From the NCBI GenBank assembly GCA_945874455.1, contig CAMCHO010000025.1:1-36257 (forward strand): a stretch of 36,257 nt of DNA, in the 5' to 3' direction. Source of the stretch: Opitutus sp. GAS368. Lineage in GTDB: Bacteria > Verrucomicrobiota > Verrucomicrobiia > Opitutales > Opitutaceae. Below the pieces are notes generated by a model. The model did not search any database, was not told the DNA's origin, and saw only the letters and a program-made list of their open reading frames with translations. Below, one piece after another: positions 1,625-20,399 of the stretch. The translations under genes were made by a program, and so were the position numbers. Position 1 is the first letter of the stretch, and each line of letters begins with the position of its first letter.

Positions 1625-2923
1625 ATGGATGGAACCGGCACTTCAGCGTTGGGCGTGGAGCGTCCCGCGTTAGACGTTCTGCGCGATGGCGCAGAGTGGG
1701 CTGGGCCGGGCGTGGGGGGCGGAACGCGGCGGAAGTTTACATGGAGCGCGCTGTTGTGGGCACTCGTCCACCCGCAGCGGGGGCATCGGATCGTGCCGAC
1801 GCTGCCGGGTGTGCTCCTCATCGGGCTGTCCATCGGCATCGGCACGGCGGCGTATAATTCATCGAACAATATTTTGTTTATCACGCTCTCGTTGCTGTTG
1901 GCGTGTTTGATTTTGAGCGTCGTCTTGGGGTGGCTGAATTTGCGGGGCGTGGCGTGGCGGCTACGTTTGGCGGCGCCGTTGCGGGTGGGGCGCGAGGCGG
2001 TGGTGGCGTTGGAATTGAGAAACCGAAAGGCGTTTTTACCGACGTATGGGCTGTGGTTCGAGCTGGCAGCACGCGCAGTCGAGATGGGCGTGCGGCAGCG
2101 GGCCGAGTCGACGGTCACAGGGCGGGGTCTCAACGTACGCGAGCTGTTAGCGAAGGCGGACGCCGCCGTGACGCGCGGACGACTGGGCTTGCGGACGCGC
2201 CTCGAGCCCCAGGGCGACGCTCGGCTGGAGTGGGGGTGCAAGCCGGGAAAACGCGGTTTGCTGCGGGTGGAGCTGACGTGCGTGGCGTCGCTTTTCCCTT
2301 TTGGGTTTTTGAAAAAAGAAATCGGTACAGCGTTGTGCGCGGAGGCGGTGGTGTGGCCGGCGGCGGTGGCGTATCAGGTCCACGCGATGGCGGCACCTCG
2401 TCGACAAGCGGGCGGCCCCAGGATGGCGCGGGCGGGAATAGGCGGAGATTTGTACGCCCTGCGGCGTTACGCGGCGGGGGACTCGCACCGGTTAATCCAC
2501 TGGAAGGCGAGCGCGCGGACGCGGACGTTGTTGGTGCGGCAATTTGCGGCGGAGACTGCGGAGGGATTCTCGCTCTGGCTGCGGACCGATGTAGCCGTGT
2601 GGGCGCGTCCAGAACAGTTTGAATTACTCGTGAGTTTTTGTGGCACGCTGGCCGAGGATTTTTTCCGGGCGGGTCGGCTGACAGGTTTGGCGATTGATGG
2701 AGAGGCTCCGGTATCCGTCCGGCGAGTGCACGATGTGGAAGCGTTCTTGGATCGGTTGGCGACCGTGCGTTGCGCGGAGGGTGACGGACAAACGGCGATG
2801 GCGCCGGGGAACTCGCGGGAGCTTGGGGAGCTGCGCGGGCGAAAAAATGTGATGACGTTTGAGCCGGACGGAACGCGTGGCGTGGTGGCGCTGGTCGACG
2901 GGGAAAGGGCGGCGTCGATATGA
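1625..2923 (+). CDS. DUF58 domain protein, membrane anchored
   Basis: This 432-residue protein has two hydrophobic segments near residues 60-100 (from IVPTLPGVLLIGLS and from ILFITLSLLLACLI), followed by a soluble part. The DUF58 signature is clear in the C-terminal half: GGDLYALRRYAAGDSHRLIH, then WKASAR. DUF58 proteins have a von Willebrand factor A-like fold and partner MoxR ATPases; the biochemical role is not established. Its stop codon overlaps the start of the transglutaminase gene (ATGA at 2920-2923), indicating translational coupling. The 45 or so N-terminal residues before the first membrane segment are low in complexity, so a later start is possible, but no better in-frame ATG is evident. 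Confidence 0.9.
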   Translation: MDGTGTSALGVERPALDVLRDGAEWAGPGVGGGTRRKFTWSALLWALVHPQRGHRIVPTLPGVLLIGLSIGIGTAAYNSSNNILFITLSLLLACLILSVVLGWLNLRGVAWRLRLAAPLRVGREAVVALELRNRKAFLPTYGLWFELAARAVEMGVRQRAESTVTGRGLNVRELLAKADAAVTRGRLGLRTRLEPQGDARLEWGCKPGKRGLLRVELTCVASLFPFGFLKKEIGTALCAEAVVWPAAVAYQVHAMAAPRRQAGGPRMARAGIGGDLYALRRYAAGDSHRLIHWKASARTRTLLVRQFAAETAEGFSLWLRTDVAVWARPEQFELLVSFCGTLAEDFFRAGRLTGLAIDGEAPVSVRRVHDVEAFLDRLATVRCAEGDGQTAMAPGNSRELGELRGRKNVMTFEPDGTRGVVALVDGERAASI

Positions 2924-5199
2924 GTGCGCGAGGAGCACGCGAACCGGTGACACGTGCCGTGCCCAGGGTCGTCGCGAGACGGCCACAGCTGACGCAGGAA
3001 GAGTTACACCAAGTGAAATGGATGCTTGGCGGCGTGCTCACGTTGCTGGCGGTGTGGACCGTTTTCTACATGGACGTGGCAGCATGGTCGCTGATGGTGG
3101 CAACGACGCTGACGACTCTGGCGGCGCTCGTGTGGCCGCGTTTGCCTGCCCGCGTGCCGGAGCTCGCGCACACGCTGGCGTTTCCGGTCATTGTGGCCTT
3201 TTTTGCCGGTGATCTTTGGCTGACGTCGGAGGTGCTGCCAGGGATGGTACGGCTGGGGATGTTTCTCTTAATGTATCGAGGAATAAGTTACCGTCAACGA
3301 CGCGACGATCTTCAGGTGATCGTGCTCGGGCTTTTTTTGATCGTAGTCGCGGGGGTGTTGACGGTGTCGCTTTTGTTTGCGGTGCAGATCTTCATCTACA
3401 CAGGGTGTGCGCTGGGGTTTTTGCTCGTGATCACGTTGACCGAGTCGCTGGAGGGCGGACAAAAGCCGGGGCCGCACAAAGCCGGAGACTTGCCGACGTG
3501 GGCGGCGCACGCGGACTGGGGCCGGCTGTTTCGGCGTTTGCGTGAAGTGGCGGACTGGCGAGTGGTCACGCTAGGCGGGGTGCTGTTTGCGGGAGTGTTG
3601 GGTCTGTCGGCCGTGTTGTTCCTAGCGCTTCCGCGGTTCCAATGGGAGAACAGTCTGTTTTCAGACCGTTACGTTGCGAAGAAGGCGCGGTCAGGGTTCA
3701 GCGACTCAATCAAGGTTGGTGATGTGTCCGAGATCATTCAGGACACGAGCGTGGCCTTGAGTGTAGACGTGTCGGATCGAAGCCAGGTGCCGATGGCGCC
3801 GTATTGGCGGATGGTGGTGCTCGACGAGTATCGTGACGGTACTTTTCGGTTTTCGGCGGGGCTCAAGAGAGAAGCGCTGGGCAAGGATCGCACGGACACG
3901 GCCTTGCGGGGAGAGGCGCGCCCGCGGAGGGGCGAGGCGGTTTTCTGGACGTTTTACCTCGAGTCCGGGGTGAGTCGCTACCTGCCGCTGCTGGGCGAAT
4001 TTGAACGGGTGCAGTTTCGTGAGCCGCAGAATTTTCAATACGCGGCCGAGTTGAACGTGGTGGCGCTGCGGAATGAGCCGGTCTCGATGACCGCCTACCG
4101 TGTGGAAAGTATGGATACGTCGGGGATACTGCGCGATCCGGCGTTTGCCCGGCGCTGGCAGGAGCGTGATCCCGCGGTGGCGCCAAGGATGGTGATGCAA
4201 CGGCGCGTGGGAGTGGGCGATTCGGATCGGACCCGGCTGGAGCAAATCGTGGCCGAGATTGCGATGGGTGGGCCAGGGCTGGCGGCTGAGGAATTTACGC
4301 GGCGGACCGAAGAGTGGCTGAGGAAGAACCACGCCTATTCGCTGTCGCCCCGAGTGCCTGGGGGCGAGGGGGATCCACTGGTGCGCTGGCTGGTTTCACA
4401 CGAGGCGGGGCATTGCGAGTTGTTCGCGGGGTCGTTCGTGCTGCTGGCGCGGACGGCCGGATTTCCCGCCCGGGTAGTCACCGGATTTCGGGGCGGCACG
4501 TGGAACGGTTTCTCCAATCACATTACTATTCGCAATTCTGACGCCCATGCGTGGGCGGAGATATTTGATGAGTCGACCGGGGCATGGGTGCGGGGAGATG
4601 CGCTCGGTGTCGCGGCGCCGGCCGAGACGAGCGAAGCGCAGCGGGAGGCAGCGTGGGTGCGGCGGATGGACCGGAGTTGGTCGGCGCGTTTTGACAGCCT
4701 GCGGATTTTTTGGTATCGGCGTATCGTGAACTTCGATCAGCGCTCGCAAGTTGAGGCGCTCCGCGCGGTGAAGATGGCGACGCAAAACTCGGGCAAGCGG
4801 CTGCGCGAGGCGGTCGAGCAGCTCGGCGCTGACCTAAAGGCGTGGCTGTCGGCTCCGTGGGACGGGGTGCGGGTGATCAAGTCGGGAGCCGTAGTCGCGC
4901 TGGCGGGCGGAATGACCTGGTGGTGGATCGCGGTGGGGCGAGGATTGGTGCGCGGGTGGTGGCTCTGGCGCGGGGGGCGACGATCAGATCCGGTTCGGCT
5001 GTTGGCGGGACGATGGCTCGGCGAAATGGCTGGTTATCGCTCGGCGAGCGGCGAATCGAGGGAACTGCCGGAGCTGGTGGCGGAATTACAACGGGTGCGT
5101 TTCGGACCGCGGGAGACATGGCCGGAGCCGGAGGGCGTGTTTCGGCGCGCGAGGCGGGTCTCGCGCGAGGTGCGCCGCCAACGGCGAGCGGCGGGCTAG
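2920..5199 (+). CDS. Transmembrane transglutaminase-like protein (TgpA / DUF3488 type)
   Basis: A 759-residue membrane protein. Several N-terminal helices lie between residues 30 and 235. A large extracytoplasmic region carries the transglutaminase core, and another helix lies near 650-675 (AVVALAGGMTWWWIAVG). The probable catalytic triad is C499 (in AGHCELFAG), H543 (in DAHAWAE) and D560. The Asp sits in WVRGD rather than the common DPT context. Family members resemble Pseudomonas TgpA, an essential periplasmic-facing protein of unknown substrate. The gene overlaps the DUF58 stop by four bases and is the last gene of the MoxR operon. Downstream, the transcript would run into the palindrome array and the convergent mrdA gene. 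Confidence 0.9.
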   Translation: MSARGAREPVTRAVPRVVARRPQLTQEELHQVKWMLGGVLTLLAVWTVFYMDVAAWSLMVATTLTTLAALVWPRLPARVPELAHTLAFPVIVAFFAGDLWLTSEVLPGMVRLGMFLLMYRGISYRQRRDDLQVIVLGLFLIVVAGVLTVSLLFAVQIFIYTGCALGFLLVITLTESLEGGQKPGPHKAGDLPTWAAHADWGRLFRRLREVADWRVVTLGGVLFAGVLGLSAVLFLALPRFQWENSLFSDRYVAKKARSGFSDSIKVGDVSEIIQDTSVALSVDVSDRSQVPMAPYWRMVVLDEYRDGTFRFSAGLKREALGKDRTDTALRGEARPRRGEAVFWTFYLESGVSRYLPLLGEFERVQFREPQNFQYAAELNVVALRNEPVSMTAYRVESMDTSGILRDPAFARRWQERDPAVAPRMVMQRRVGVGDSDRTRLEQIVAEIAMGGPGLAAEEFTRRTEEWLRKNHAYSLSPRVPGGEGDPLVRWLVSHEAGHCELFAGSFVLLARTAGFPARVVTGFRGGTWNGFSNHITIRNSDAHAWAEIFDESTGAWVRGDALGVAAPAETSEAQREAAWVRRMDRSWSARFDSLRIFWYRRIVNFDQRSQVEALRAVKMATQNSGKRLREAVEQLGADLKAWLSAPWDGVRVIKSGAVVALAGGMTWWWIAVGRGLVRGWWLWRGGRRSDPVRLLAGRWLGEMAGYRSASGESRELPELVAELQRVRFGPRETWPEPEGVFRRARRVSREVRRQRRAAG

Positions 5200-5715
5200 T
5201 TTTACAGCGTCACCGCTGCTCAAGAAGCGCCCGGAATTATTTGTCACGTATTACGTGACAAACGCTCCGTGCGGCCTCGTGAAAAGTGTCACGGATTACG
5301 TGACACTTGCGTCGTTTCGCTTCCGGAGACTTGTCACGTATTACGTGACAAACGCTCCGCGCGGCGTCGTGAAAAGGGTCACGGATTACGTGACAGAGTA
5401 TTACGTGAAAATCGCATCGTTTCGCTTCCGGAGACTTGTCACGTATTACGTGACAAACGTTCCGTGCGGCCTCGTGAAAAGTGTCACGGATTGCGTGACA
5501 TAGTATTACGTGAAAATCGCATCGTTTCGCCTCTGGGCACTTGTCACGGATTACGTGACAAACCCTCCGCGCGGCGTCGTGAAAAGGGTCACGGATTACG
5601 TGACAGAGTATTACGTGGCCCTCGCATCGTTTCGCCTCCGGGCACTTGTCACGGATTACGTGACAAACCCTCTAGAAATGGCTGGGTTTTCTTCGCGAAG
5701 TTAACAGGGTGTGGG
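5200..5715. other. Convergent intergenic region without a credible gene
   Basis: This 516-bp gap between two convergent operons is filled almost entirely by the palindromic repeat array described separately. Reading frames through it stay open only because the repeat periods (90 and 105 bp) are multiples of three. They lack an ATG start and encode repetitive low-information peptides, so they are not called. No standard hairpin plus T-tract terminator was found, although the palindromes could form hairpins in either transcript. Confidence 0.75.
5241..5672. repeat. Tandem array of near-perfect palindromes on a 15-bp lattice
   Basis: Four tandem units start at 5241, 5331, 5436 and 5541 (lengths 90, 105, 105 and 105 bp), followed by a partial fifth at 5646. 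Each full unit holds two palindromes. The first has 10-bp arms TTGTCACGTA / TACGTGACAA around a single T; later copies carry GGA in place of GTA. The second has arms TGTCACG or GGTCACG and CGTGACA around GATTA (GATTG in one copy). The nine palindrome centres are at 5251, 5296, 5341, 5386, 5446, 5491, 5551, 5596 and 5656. Degenerate half-sites (TATTACGTG) are centred at 5401, 5506 and 5611. All centres are congruent modulo 15, with spacings of 45 or 60 bp between full sites. Unit 1 lacks the 15 bp holding the half-site. Between palindromes lie conserved GC-rich spacers such as TCCGTGCGGCCTCGTG. The function is unknown; the symmetry suggests multiple dimeric protein-binding sites or hairpins. 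Confidence 0.9.
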
Positions 5716-7701
5716 CTACTGTCCCTTGGCGGGCTGGAACGGGGAGGTGGCGGCGCGATTCTTCTTTTCGAAATATTTTTTTAGAATCGCACTGGCGACC
5801 GGGCCGGCATTGCGGCCGCCGCCAAATTCTTCCCCGGGCGTATCGCCTTCGAGGGCGACGGCGATGGCGATTTCGGGGTTTTCCACGGGGGCAAAGCAGA
5901 TGAACCAGGCAATGTTAATCATGCCGGCCTTAGTGCTGACCTGCGCGGTGCCCGTCTTTCCAGCGATGCGCACGCCAGGGACGCGCTGGATTTCAACAGT
6001 CGTAAGGTTGCGAGCGGTGCCCCTGGGCGGAAGAGTGCAGGCTTCCATGCCCTCGATGAGGGCGGCGCGTTGTTCGGGCGTGAGACCGATGGATTCAGAT
6101 TTTTGACGCGGTCGGTTGGGCTGATGGATCAAAGTCGGTTGGGTGAAGACCTCGCCACGCGCGACCGAGGCAGTGAAGCAGGCCATCTGGAGGGGCGTGA
6201 CGAGGACGAAGCCCTGCCCCATCGACATGTTGGCGGTGTCGCCGGGGAACCATTTTGCGTTTTTCGCGCGCTCTTTCCAGGCGTTGTCGGGCACGAGCAT
6301 GCCGCGGGTCTCGCCGGGGAGTTCGATGCCGGTGCGGCGGTCGAAGTGGAAACGGCGCGCCTCTTCGGCGAGGCCTTCGGGTTTGGTCAGCCAGCCCGCT
6401 TCATTGAAGTAGAGGTCACAACTCTCCGCGATGGCCTCGCGGAGGAGTACATTGTGGTGATGGCCGAGGCCATTGTAACAGACGAAGCGGTGATTGAATT
6501 TTTGGAGAAAGCCGTCGCAGTCGATAATCGGCGCGTCGGGGGTGATCGCTCCGCGACGCAGGGCGGCGATGGAGGTGAGGATTTTGTAGGTCGAGCCTGG
6601 TGGGTAAAGGCCGCTGAGGGCGCGGTTGAACTCGCCGCCTTGGGCCTGAATCGCGGCGTAGGTGGCGTTGCTGACGCGGGGCGAGAAATCGGTGAGGTTA
6701 TAGTCGGGCTTGCTGACGAGGGTGAGCACTTCGCCGGTGGTAACATCGATGGCGACGGCGGCGCCGATTTGATCGCCGATGGTTTGCTCGGCCGCAAGTT
6801 GGAGGTCGATGTCCAAGGAGCTGACCAAGTTTTTTCCTTGGAGGGGCAGTCGTTTCTCGAGTGGTGGGTTGACCTTGTAGCCGGCGGGATCGACGCGGAA
6901 AATGGTGCCGCCGGCCTCACCTTGGAGTTGGCTGTCGAAGGTTTTTTCCAAGCCGTCTTTACCGATGGTGCCCTTCATTTTGAAGGTGGCGAGATCTTCG
7001 CCGGGGAAGTCCTCGACGTTGAGTTCTTCGTTCACGCGGACGAAGCCGAGGGCGTGGGCGGCGCCGGAGCCGAAGGGGTAATGGCGCGTGCTGGAGGTGT
7101 AGACTTGCAGCGGCGAGCGGACCGGGAGGCCCTCGATCAGGCGGGCGTATTCCGGTCCGGTGAGATCATCGATGAGCTTGTAGGGCAGGAGCAGTTGGTC
7201 GCCGAAGTGGCGCGCGAGGGAGGCTGCGTCGACTTTTTCGGAACGGCCGATGATGGTGTTCACCTCGTCGAGGTAGCGCTGCACGACGCTGACGCGGCTC
7301 ATGCGGGAAAAAGGCATTTCGCGCAGGGCGGCCTCGGGCATATCGGACTTGCCGTAGTTTTTCTTGATGATCCGCGCTTCGCTCAGGAACTCGGACTTGA
7401 GTTCATCGAGATAGAGCACGACGGAAAAGCGTGGACGATTGCCGACGAGGACCGTGACGCCGTCCCGCGCATAGATGTTCCCGCGCGGGCCGGGCACGAG
7501 GACGCGGCGCTGACTCTGCACGCGCTCGCGCTCGTGGTAGGTTTCAGTTTTAAACAGCTGTTGATAGGCGAGGCCGCCGGTGAGAATCAACAGCAGGACG
7601 GCGAGGGCGAAATAGAAGGAAATCACTCGCGGGTCGTAACCCTTATGGGACTCAAGGAGAGTGCCAGAGTGCTCTAAGGGATTGGACTCGGACGTGGGCA
7701 T
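5716..7701 (-). CDS. mrdA: Penicillin-binding protein 2, elongation-specific transpeptidase
   Basis: A 661-residue class B penicillin-binding protein that cross-links peptidoglycan during lateral wall growth. It has a short cytoplasmic N-terminus and one membrane anchor at about residues 28-48. The PBP dimerisation region follows (VPGPRGNIYARDG near 70-81), then the transpeptidase domain. Active-site motifs are S370-T-Y-K373, S427-C-D429 and K582-T-G-T585. An Asp in the second motif is usual for PBP2. The ATG is 4 bp after the mreD stop, so it is the promoter-distal gene of mreBCD-mrdA. The usual next gene, rodA, is absent; the operon ends at the palindrome array. This context separates it from the divisome paralogue FtsI. 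Confidence 0.95.
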   Translation of the reverse strand: MPTSESNPLEHSGTLLESHKGYDPRVISFYFALAVLLLILTGGLAYQQLFKTETYHERERVQSQRRVLVPGPRGNIYARDGVTVLVGNRPRFSVVLYLDELKSEFLSEARIIKKNYGKSDMPEAALREMPFSRMSRVSVVQRYLDEVNTIIGRSEKVDAASLARHFGDQLLLPYKLIDDLTGPEYARLIEGLPVRSPLQVYTSSTRHYPFGSGAAHALGFVRVNEELNVEDFPGEDLATFKMKGTIGKDGLEKTFDSQLQGEAGGTIFRVDPAGYKVNPPLEKRLPLQGKNLVSSLDIDLQLAAEQTIGDQIGAAVAIDVTTGEVLTLVSKPDYNLTDFSPRVSNATYAAIQAQGGEFNRALSGLYPPGSTYKILTSIAALRRGAITPDAPIIDCDGFLQKFNHRFVCYNGLGHHHNVLLREAIAESCDLYFNEAGWLTKPEGLAEEARRFHFDRRTGIELPGETRGMLVPDNAWKERAKNAKWFPGDTANMSMGQGFVLVTPLQMACFTASVARGEVFTQPTLIHQPNRPRQKSESIGLTPEQRAALIEGMEACTLPPRGTARNLTTVEIQRVPGVRIAGKTGTAQVSTKAGMINIAWFICFAPVENPEIAIAVALEGDTPGEEFGGGRNAGPVASAILKKYFEKKNRAATSPFQPAKGQ

Positions 7702-19055: not shown

Positions 19056-20399
19056 ATGCGGCTCGATAAAATCATCGCGCGGAGCCGGATCATCGATCTG
19101 CGTAGTCACGACCTCGAAGGGGCACTCCAAGAGTTGCTCGCCGTTTGCGTCGGAAGTTTTTCAGACCTGAAACCGGATGCCTTGCTCAAAGGCCTGCTGG
19201 CCCGTGAGAGCACGATGACGACGTACCTTGGGCTCGGGGTGGCGCTCCCTCATGTGCGGGTGAAGATGAGCCGCCGTTATATTCTCGCGATTGGGCGCAG
19301 TCGGGTCGGTATCCGCCACGACGGTGCGTTGGCGGATGAGCGTGTGCATTTGATTGTGATGCTGATTGCCGGTGAAAAGGCGCGCGACTACCTACAGGTC
19401 CTCGCTTCGATCGCTCGGCAGGTGAAGGAAAAAGAATTGGTCGATCGCTTGGTGGCCTCATCCGATTTGGATGCGTTACACGAGCAATTGGTGGGTGGCT
19501 TCGGCGGTATCCGGCCTGTTCAGGCCCAGCAGAACCGGATGAATCGGCTGATGTTCCGCGAGGCGGAACGCGTCGCGAAGGGGGCTGATTGCGGGGCGAT
19601 TATGGTTTTCGGGGATACCTTTGTGGGTGGGATCGAGCGCGGGGCGATCGAGTCCAAGCTGAAAACGATCCTCGTCACGCGTAACCCGATCGAGCCTGGA
19701 GAGGACGAACGTGCATTTGCTGAGACGATCCAGGTGCGCTCGTTTTCGAATCAACGCATGGCGCAGTTGCGCAGCGCGATTCTGGTGGCCCTCACTCGCG
19801 GCGTGATTTCGTTTAACGACCGGATCTGCTGCCTCGATGGCATGACTGGGAGCAACCAGTTCGACACGCTGGTCGTCGTCGATATTGAACGGGAATTTCA
19901 GACCCTGCTTGCCGGTCATACCTCCGACCTCCTGCCGGAGGATGTGAAACCAGAAGTGCTCGAGCGGGTGATCGCGGTCGCGACCGAACTCGCCGTCGAG
20001 GGCCGGGAGGGTCGACCGGTCGGTTGTCTCTTTGTCGTCGGGGACAATGAGAAGGTCGCGTCCTTCATCAAGCCCCTCGTGCTCAATCCGTTTTTCGGCT
20101 ACAAGGAAGAGGAGCGTAACATTCTGAATCCTTTCATGGACGAGACGGTGAAGGAGTTTTCCTCGATCGACGGCGCTTTTATTATTCGAGGTGACGGGGT
20201 AGTGGAGTCGGCTGGCAGTCTCATCCAGGCCACTGACACCGACTATTCGCTACCGAGTGGATTGGGTAGTCGCCATGCGGCGGCGGCGGCGATCAGCGTG
20301 GCGTCCAATTGCATTTCCATCGTCGTCTCTTCGAGTACGAGCCAGGTGACGCTCTTCCGTCGTGGGGTAATGCTGCCTTTGACAGAAAAACGGCGTTGA
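19056..20399 (+). CDS. Three-domain protein: PTS EIIA, pyruvate-kinase-C-like domain, diadenylate cyclase
   Basis: A 447-residue predicted c-di-AMP synthase. Residues 1-150 match a PTS EIIA (fructose/Ntr type) domain, with the phospho-acceptor H66 in [11 protein letters not shown]. Residues 165-280 look like a pyruvate kinase C-terminal-like alpha/beta domain, running from [18 protein letters not shown] to the [19 protein letters not shown] ending. Residues 295-447 are a DisA_N (DAC) domain with both catalytic motifs: D372-G-A and G404-S-R406-H407. No membrane helices are seen, so it is cytoplasmic. A PK-C plus DAC arrangement is known for the CdaZ class; the added EIIA domain suggests control by phosphotransfer. 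It follows nuoA by 48 bp and precedes rpmG by 88 bp. The fold assignment of the middle domain is inference; the EIIA and DAC motifs are direct. Confidence 0.87.

Follow-up and report, generated by a model that had tools for sequence, protein, structure and literature searches.

The nine-palindrome array at 5241–5666 of the 36,257-bp window (the whole stretch of Opitutus sp. GAS368 DNA that was analysed) is best read, with a probability that we put at roughly 0.8 from sequence comparison, as a tandem-amplified REP-like palindrome of the Opitutaceae, each copy of which would most likely be the double-stranded binding site for a dimer of a small, co-diversifying Cro-like HTH protein. The protein and the site family may have diversified together, so that lineages, and paralogues within one genome, would each own a protein-palindrome pair. 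We infer that the HTH protein binds these sites, that it dimerises, and that the palindrome has spread by mobility or by copying; the HTH partner apparently co-evolves with the REP-like family.

Layout of the array and origin of its 15-bp lattice

The array comprises four units (90, 105, 105 and 105 bp) followed by a terminal palindrome, and lies, as the preliminary description stated, between convergent genes, namely a TgpA-like transglutaminase gene (2920–5199, + strand) and a PBP2-type transpeptidase gene (5716–7701, – strand). Both neighbours are regarded as host context only; mreD-, mreC- and mreB-like genes adjoin the PBP2-type gene on the same strand. Nine copies of the consensus TGTCACG(G/T)ATT(A/G)CGTGACA, two of which start with G, occupy 5242–5665 with no strand assigned to the array or its parts. 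Palindrome 1 (TGTCACGTATTACGTGACA) lies at 5242–5260, palindrome 2, with a GATTA centre, at 5287–5305, palindrome 3 at 5332–5350, palindrome 4 (GGTCACG...CGTGACA) at 5377–5395, palindrome 5 at 5437–5455, palindrome 6 at 5482–5500, palindrome 7 at 5542–5560, palindrome 8 (GGTCACG...CGTGACA) at 5587–5605 and palindrome 9 at 5647–5665. Zero-mismatch matches to GTCACGNATTNCGTGAC start at 5243, 5288, 5333, 5378, 5438, 5483, 5543, 5588 and 5648 (n = 9), and 18 strand matches are obtained with up to three mismatches, compared with 1.25 ± 1.15 in shuffles. Pairing within the 19-mer reaches at least 8/9 in seven of the nine palindromes, including 9/9 pairs in palindromes 1, 3 and 5, and is lower in the two copies that start with GGTCACG (5377 and 5587).

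The palindrome centres (5251, 5296, 5341, 5386, 5446, 5491, 5551, 5596 and 5656) all equal 1 modulo 15, with centre-to-centre spacings of 45, 45, 45, 60, 45, 60, 45 and 60 bp. In units 2–4, the second palindrome is followed at 15 bp by the centre of a degenerate half-site, (GA/TA)GTATTACGTG, within the 15-bp steps at 5396–5410 (centre 5401, no strand assigned), 5501–5515 and 5606–5620, the latter two following palindromes 6 and 8; unit 1 lacks both the step and the half-site. Nine palindromes on an exact 15-bp lattice, in units of 90 or 105 bp of which the first is short by one half-site step, are what had been described at the outset, and this description is confirmed, with a small correction for the two less symmetric copies. 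No Rfam match was obtained in the window, no promoter-like site was found in the array region and no match to the array was found among plasmids. Elsewhere in the window, a single protein encoded at 19056–20399 (+ strand) combines diadenylate cyclase (DAC), PTS EIIA-2 and DacZ_P sensor domains.

Comparison of the array locus across six congeners (G001, G002, G003, G006, G007 and G008) reveals a series of alleles. The own genome (G000) carries four units, G002 carries three 105-bp units, and G003 and G008 carry a single palindrome with the sequence of palindrome 1. The right flank (5666–5715, no strand assigned) recurs beside the array in G002 and beside the single palindrome in G003, and the exact palindrome is kept between G003 and G008 despite their diverged flanks. 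The alleles of G001, G006 and G007 have no palindrome, but their divergence is too great to reveal an exact empty site. The locus search returned no match in G004, and none at the array locus in G005. L043, L075 and L094, which apparently equal G003, G002 and G034, respectively, were counted once in this locus history.

Doublets spaced by 45 bp recur elsewhere in seven genomes (G000, G002, G003, G005, G006, G007 and G008, some of them being one locus across genomes), indicating that doublets of the genus are commonly spaced by 45 bp. The second palindrome is followed by an extra 15 bp that resembles a partial duplication (ATTACGTGACAGAGT / ATTACGTGAAAATCG). These two lengths, copied along with the unit, yield the whole modulo-15 lattice, so that selection on phasing is unnecessary; and since the units appear to be mutual copies, their regularity provides no independent evidence of selection. 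The lattice is a by-product of duplication. A single site would have expanded into a 45-bp-spaced doublet with a 15-bp partial duplication, and the resulting 90/105-bp unit would then have been repeated to give the lattice, with slippage or recombination probably setting the copy number; we infer the direction of the series, expansion from a single site, from the alleles above. The preliminary description had offered selection or recent unit duplication as the source of the phasing. Duplication is supported by the occurrence of one palindrome, three units and four units in different genomes, and selection is not needed. It had also held that copies scattered without phasing would count against its reading; such copies are what we find, and in effect they dispose of the lattice and leave the palindrome standing.

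A dispersed palindrome family and its variants

Sites with the exact arms TGTCACG-N5-CGTGACA number 36 in the own genome and occur in 19 of the 57 genomes searched, the own genome included, every one of them within Opitutaceae (maximum count, 70); none was found in the 20 genomes from other families of the order. Inside the genus, the count of CACG sites ranges from 0 to 45. An exact scan of named genomes matched at least 110 stretches, and all of those listed are titled Verrucomicrobiota, the titles among them including Opitutia, Opitutae, Opitutaceae, Opitutus, Lacunisphaera, Ca. Synoicihabitans and 'Verrucomicrobia bacterium'; the exact palindrome was not found in IMG/VR. A repeat family of this lineage, one of the possibilities raised from the window alone, is thus confirmed, and is confined to the family among the genomes searched.

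Gene placement, for which a home-made gene caller was used and orthologous loci were left uncollapsed, was obtained for 117 of 136 clusters: 95 clusters are intergenic, 20 lie inside genes and two lie at gene edges. The intergenic clusters fall in 56 tandem, 23 convergent and 16 divergent gaps, close to the share of gap length at the same loci (68.8, 22.9 and 23.5 kb, respectively), indicating that the palindrome is mostly intergenic and has no orientation preference. Many copies are single or paired, and G028 has 24 mapped sites on one contig. Pair spacings vary among lineages and, when pooled, cluster at 43–48 and 53–60 bp; helical phasing of the pairs is not claimed (p = 0.32 for distinct spacings alone). 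The flanks beyond the 19-bp core are mostly unrelated apart from pairing at ±1 and ±2, which over 196 sites occurs in 89% and 70%, respectively, against 38% and 35% in the control; a second count has pairing at ±1 in 174 of 195 sites. A CCTCT tail at +3/+4 after the palindrome, seen 24 times around 195 sites, is a subfamily feature, and the 11 copies read in G031 show, by eye, only a few flanking bases in common.

Some copies form part of longer elements. In the own genome, an element of about 115 bp with ends AGTATTACTCTGTTA/TAACAGAGTAATACT carries the palindrome in its middle and T-runs on both sides, and a search for its ends recovered five copies (L161–L170; for example C22:9253-9367). G035 contains a non-coding element of about 135 bp with palindromes at both ends, of which nine copies were read (L293–L301) and which looks like a REPIN or a MITE.

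A palindrome also sits at one coding position of a methyltransferase gene in several genera (the gene has matches in 51 of 57 genomes). Across 30 loci, the type at this site is CACG in G000, G002, G003, G005, G008, G030 and G033, CATC in G029, CAAC in G025, CACC-like in G026 and G017, and TTTCACT in G035; at the remaining loci, the palindrome is absent or decayed, some of them with in-frame insertions at the site. The position occupied by palindrome or insertion is apparently an insertion-tolerant loop. The SAM-dependent methyltransferase gene of the own genome is L195 (G000:C14:23893-24672), and it and its orthologues, among L188–L217, can carry at this position either a lineage-specific palindrome or an in-frame insertion of up to about 80 codons. 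The variants at the methyltransferase site motivated a search for other arm sequences. With TGTNNNNTATTANNNNACA, nine of 18 genomes gave matches (0–2 per genome in the reversed control), including 33 sites in G017 and 23 in G025 that comprise several self-complementary types.

A candidate HTH partner and its covariation with the palindromes

Clustering of palindrome-adjacent genes yielded a small HTH gene with flanking palindromes. A profile built from five sequences gave 31 matches in 20 of the 57 genomes, every one in Opitutaceae. Thirty of these genes have a locus, and within 220 bp a palindrome is found on both sides of 14, on one side of 10 and on neither side of six; in many copies it lies near the gene start. 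The candidate gene of the own genome (contig C3, 49235–49618) has a palindrome on both sides. Flanking criteria vary between comparisons, and the six genes without a palindrome under the strict 220-bp rule include L287, which has CGTCAAC on both sides and is missed by that rule, as well as L285 (G000:C5:35847-36194), a second paralogue in the own genome. The L285 group, with orthologues L272, L282 and L283, is syntenic in G000, G002, G003 and G008, has the helix GVSRQRLH or GISRQRLH, and has a palindrome (CATC type) near the G002 copy only.

With a uniform pattern, at least six sites are present in 13 of the 20 family genomes with the HTH gene and in none of the 17 without it (p = 2e-5, a value that ignores shared descent and a threshold that was chosen after the counts were seen). 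A second comparison of counts used mixed patterns, in which five of the 17 genomes without the gene received CACG patterns only and TTT variants were sought in 10 genomes, all with the gene; mixed patterns inflate the p-values, and the uniform-pattern figure is therefore preferred. A few sites occur in genomes without a detectable HTH gene (G009, G012, G023, G026, G029 and G033), and the congener G001 has neither the gene nor sites by the patterns used.

The HTH protein is about 120 aa long and has no recognised nuclease domain. Its best Pfam match is YdaS_toxin (12–17.3 bits against a cut-off of 30), to which one fused copy adds an integrase-core fragment; for three proteins, NCBIfam, PHROG and PADLOC gave nothing better than E = 0.04, and no relatives were found in IMG/VR, plasmids, phages or PDB sequences. 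The AF2 model from three sequences (mean pLDDT 71, with residues 51–90 at 83–90; other models, 48–64) shows one helix at the N-terminus and four at the C-terminus. Many of the best Foldseek matches are XRE proteins, with a best E-value of 0.18 and none at E ≤ 0.001. This small undescribed HTH protein is probably DNA-binding. The fused copy, L099:2721-3224, has an integrase-core (rve) fragment attached to the 5′ part of the HTH gene, and looks like a copy into which an insertion sequence has inserted.

Arm types differ between HTH copies, and the flanking arms are also dispersed in most genomes checked (site counts here include the copies adjoining the HTH gene). Four of the five HTH copies in G034 are accompanied by palindromes, of the CACG, TAACG, CACT/CACC and TGTAATA types. 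The three HTH paralogues of G017 lie beside CATC/T, CACC and CAAC types, which together account for about 30 of its 33 sites. In G031, the gene lies beside TGTAAAC/TGTCAAC and 31 of 52 sites are CAAC. G004 has no CACG site: 16 of its 17 sites start with TTT and one with TCT, and its gene is of the TTTCACT type. The 43 sites in G035 comprise eight CACG and 35 TTT-types; one of its genes adjoins CACG and another TTTTACT. The flanking type is TAACG in G018 and TTTCACG in G011; the type of the genome's own gene accounts for 4/13 sites in G018 and 6/24 in G028, alongside CACG sites. Four genomes are exceptions: G028 has 17 CACG sites, yet its sole gene adjoins CACC; G030 has 32 CACG-arm sites and no palindrome near its HTH gene; the gene of G014 lies beside CACG, yet encodes Asn at position 96; and G036 has a gene with a CATC palindrome adjoining it and no site by the TTT-inclusive pattern.

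Comparison of the neighbours of the HTH gene for synteny shows one locus shared by G000, G003, G005, G006, G007 and G008, and five of these orthologues are flanked by CACG. At the G005 locus, all four flanking palindromes are CACT, and in the helix of the G005 protein E97 is replaced by Q and V95 by I, along with further changes. The 55 stretches sampled from G005 (about 1.04 Mb) contain 12 palindromes (three CACT, three half-and-half, two CACG and four TGTAACC; reversed control, 0), six of which lie in L334, L337 and L338, stretches picked for earlier matches. The other 52 stretches contain four TGTAACC palindromes (the commonest type, 4/6), one CACT and one CACG, and the TTT-inclusive pattern gives 60 sites in G005 with types pooled. 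The half-and-half sites may mark a population of sites that is in transition. The TGTAACC...GGTTACA type occurs on G005 contigs C3, C14, C15 and C18 (L346, L356, L357 and L360), and a matching HTH gene was not found in this genome.

Covariation between protein columns and half-site bases was examined in 22 representatives of 25 typed genes, collapsed at 85% identity only; genes without a flanking palindrome (L277, L282, L283, L285 and L286) are omitted. The top-ranked columns are R92 for base 2, H96 for base 4, P91 for base 6, and A104 closely followed by E97 for base 7. Each of these was reached by 0/300 permutations, in a test that ignores phylogeny and the number of columns; A44 (base 2) and V116 (base 7), which lie outside the helix, were likewise reached by 0/300. 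Alignment to the AF2 model puts P91 at the start of the predicted recognition helix and R92, H96 and E97 within it. At base 2, G accompanies Arg92 in 19/19 cases and T accompanies Pro or Ala in 3/3. C at base 4 goes with His96 in 14/18 cases or with Asn, and A goes with Asn or Gln in 3/3. At base 6, C is found with Pro in 15/15 cases, A with Asp91 in 3/3 and T with Ser in 2/4.

The pairing at ±1 (174/195) is more than a plain operator requires. A folded-strand hairpin, drawn initially from this pairing and from the methyltransferase variants, was dropped as the main reading because the helix covariation and the G005 half-and-half sites fit double-stranded half-sites better. The preliminary description had considered a multi-site landing array for a dimeric protein; the dimeric protein gains a candidate cognate HTH family, and the phased landing array does not hold, given the many single or paired copies and the lineage-variable spacings.

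Alternative explanations and known repeat systems

REP-like repeats are common in bacteria, and their known partner is the RAYT transposase. If the palindromes were ordinary REP/REPIN repeats moved by RAYT (Y1) transposases, with the HTH gene a bystander hit by repeats, their REP-like dispersal, the doublets at lineage-typical spacing, the G035 element with palindromes at both ends (nine copies read) and the presence of Y1_Tnp matches in 43 of 57 genomes would follow. However, no palindrome lies within 500 bp of Y1_Tnp at any of 16 loci, a minority of all Y1_Tnp matches and including five from other families without the palindrome; 23 and 52 palindromes occur in G025 and G031, respectively, where Y1_Tnp has no match; Y1 and palindrome counts do not correlate (rho 0.10, from mixed-pattern counts); and the GTAG tag is not evident in the flanks, by eye or among enriched 6-mers. 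A RAYT partner is rejected because linkage and correlation are absent in the loci examined, and we consider this explanation improbable. An unlikely but more serious possibility is that the HTH protein acts on the nucleoid or in segregation, with the arrays as its strong loading sites. The sites of Noc, MatP and SlmA are functional chromosome-organising sites; here too, many sites would serve one protein, the HTH gene has a fixed locus in six congeners, the palindrome stays exact while flanks diverge (G003 versus G008) and spacings cluster at 43–48 and 53–60 bp. Such a role sits poorly with CACG counts that run from 0 to 45 within the genus, with the lack of both gene and sites in G001 by the patterns used, and with paralogues of different palindromes sharing one genome. 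We regard as quite doubtful a conventional regulon, in which the palindromes would be operators of HTH-controlled genes: the palindrome just upstream of many HTH genes looks like autoregulation, but the 56 tandem, 23 convergent and 16 divergent intergenic clusters are near the gap-length share, 22 clusters lie in or at genes, and the neighbours have no common function, as far as comparison of neighbour sequence clusters can tell.

An intrinsic or bidirectional transcription terminator, also proposed in the preliminary description, would account for self-complementary sequences between convergent operons, and T-runs adjoin the palindrome in one subfamily of the own genome. We rejected it as very improbable, as 5150–5760 contains no terminator-like site (0.9 in shuffles), the palindromes show no convergent excess, and copies occur inside genes. 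An artefact of slippage or assembly in one strain is scarcely credible as the source of the array: array length varies between close genomes, as an artefact might, but the separate assemblies of G000 and G002 both contain the array and 19 of 57 genomes contain the palindrome, which contradicts, as a sole explanation, the one-strain slippage artefact that had been named as the outcome that would undo the original reading.

The preferred reading, a REP-like palindrome family with a cognate HTH protein, has partial counterparts among known systems. Like GTAG REPs and REPINs, the palindromes are scattered over intergenic regions, singly, in doublets or in clusters, with some copies inside genes, there are several families per genome, and a family-specific gene is flanked by repeats; they differ in that the partner is a Cro-like HTH protein of about 120 aa, the GTAG tag is unseen and the palindromes are unlinked to the Y1_Tnp genes examined. 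In its passages on these repeats, PMC3733652 reports GTAG REP families in Opitutus terrae, and repeat-specific REPtrons in species with several GTAG families. The part of the same source that deals with CGTC REPs reports these REP-like palindromes without a RAYT partner (PMC3733652); the Opitutaceae palindromes resemble them in this, as far as the Y1_Tnp loci examined show, and differ in sequence and in having a candidate cognate HTH gene. Cro/C1/XRE regulators (P22 c2, 434 repressor and restriction-modification C proteins) resemble the HTH protein in symmetric sites, a site near the gene start in many copies and, weakly, predicted fold (best Foldseek E 0.18), but here sites lie on both sides of the gene in many copies and number tens genome-wide. 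The non-coding multi-copy elements with inverted ends (about 115 bp in G000 and about 135 bp in G035) recall MITEs, although no transposase with matching ends was found among Y1_Tnp, the sole class checked. A search of open-licence PubMed Central full text found no account of a palindrome family with an HTH partner.

More tentatively, a Cro-like, non-transposase protein may fill the place of RAYT for these REP-like palindromes, with the protein and dozens of sites shifting specificity together in each lineage to give orthogonal pairs per cell, and with the protein driving or protecting the spread and homogenisation of its own sites. If true, a repeat family with a plain DNA-binding partner raises two questions, the mode by which such repeats spread and the reason for their persistence. 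The family would also supply protein-operator pairs from nature whose code can be read in part (Arg92–G2, Asp91–A6 and His96–C4); with these and the half-and-half sites of G005, one could directly test how a DNA-binding protein co-evolves with dozens of its sites.
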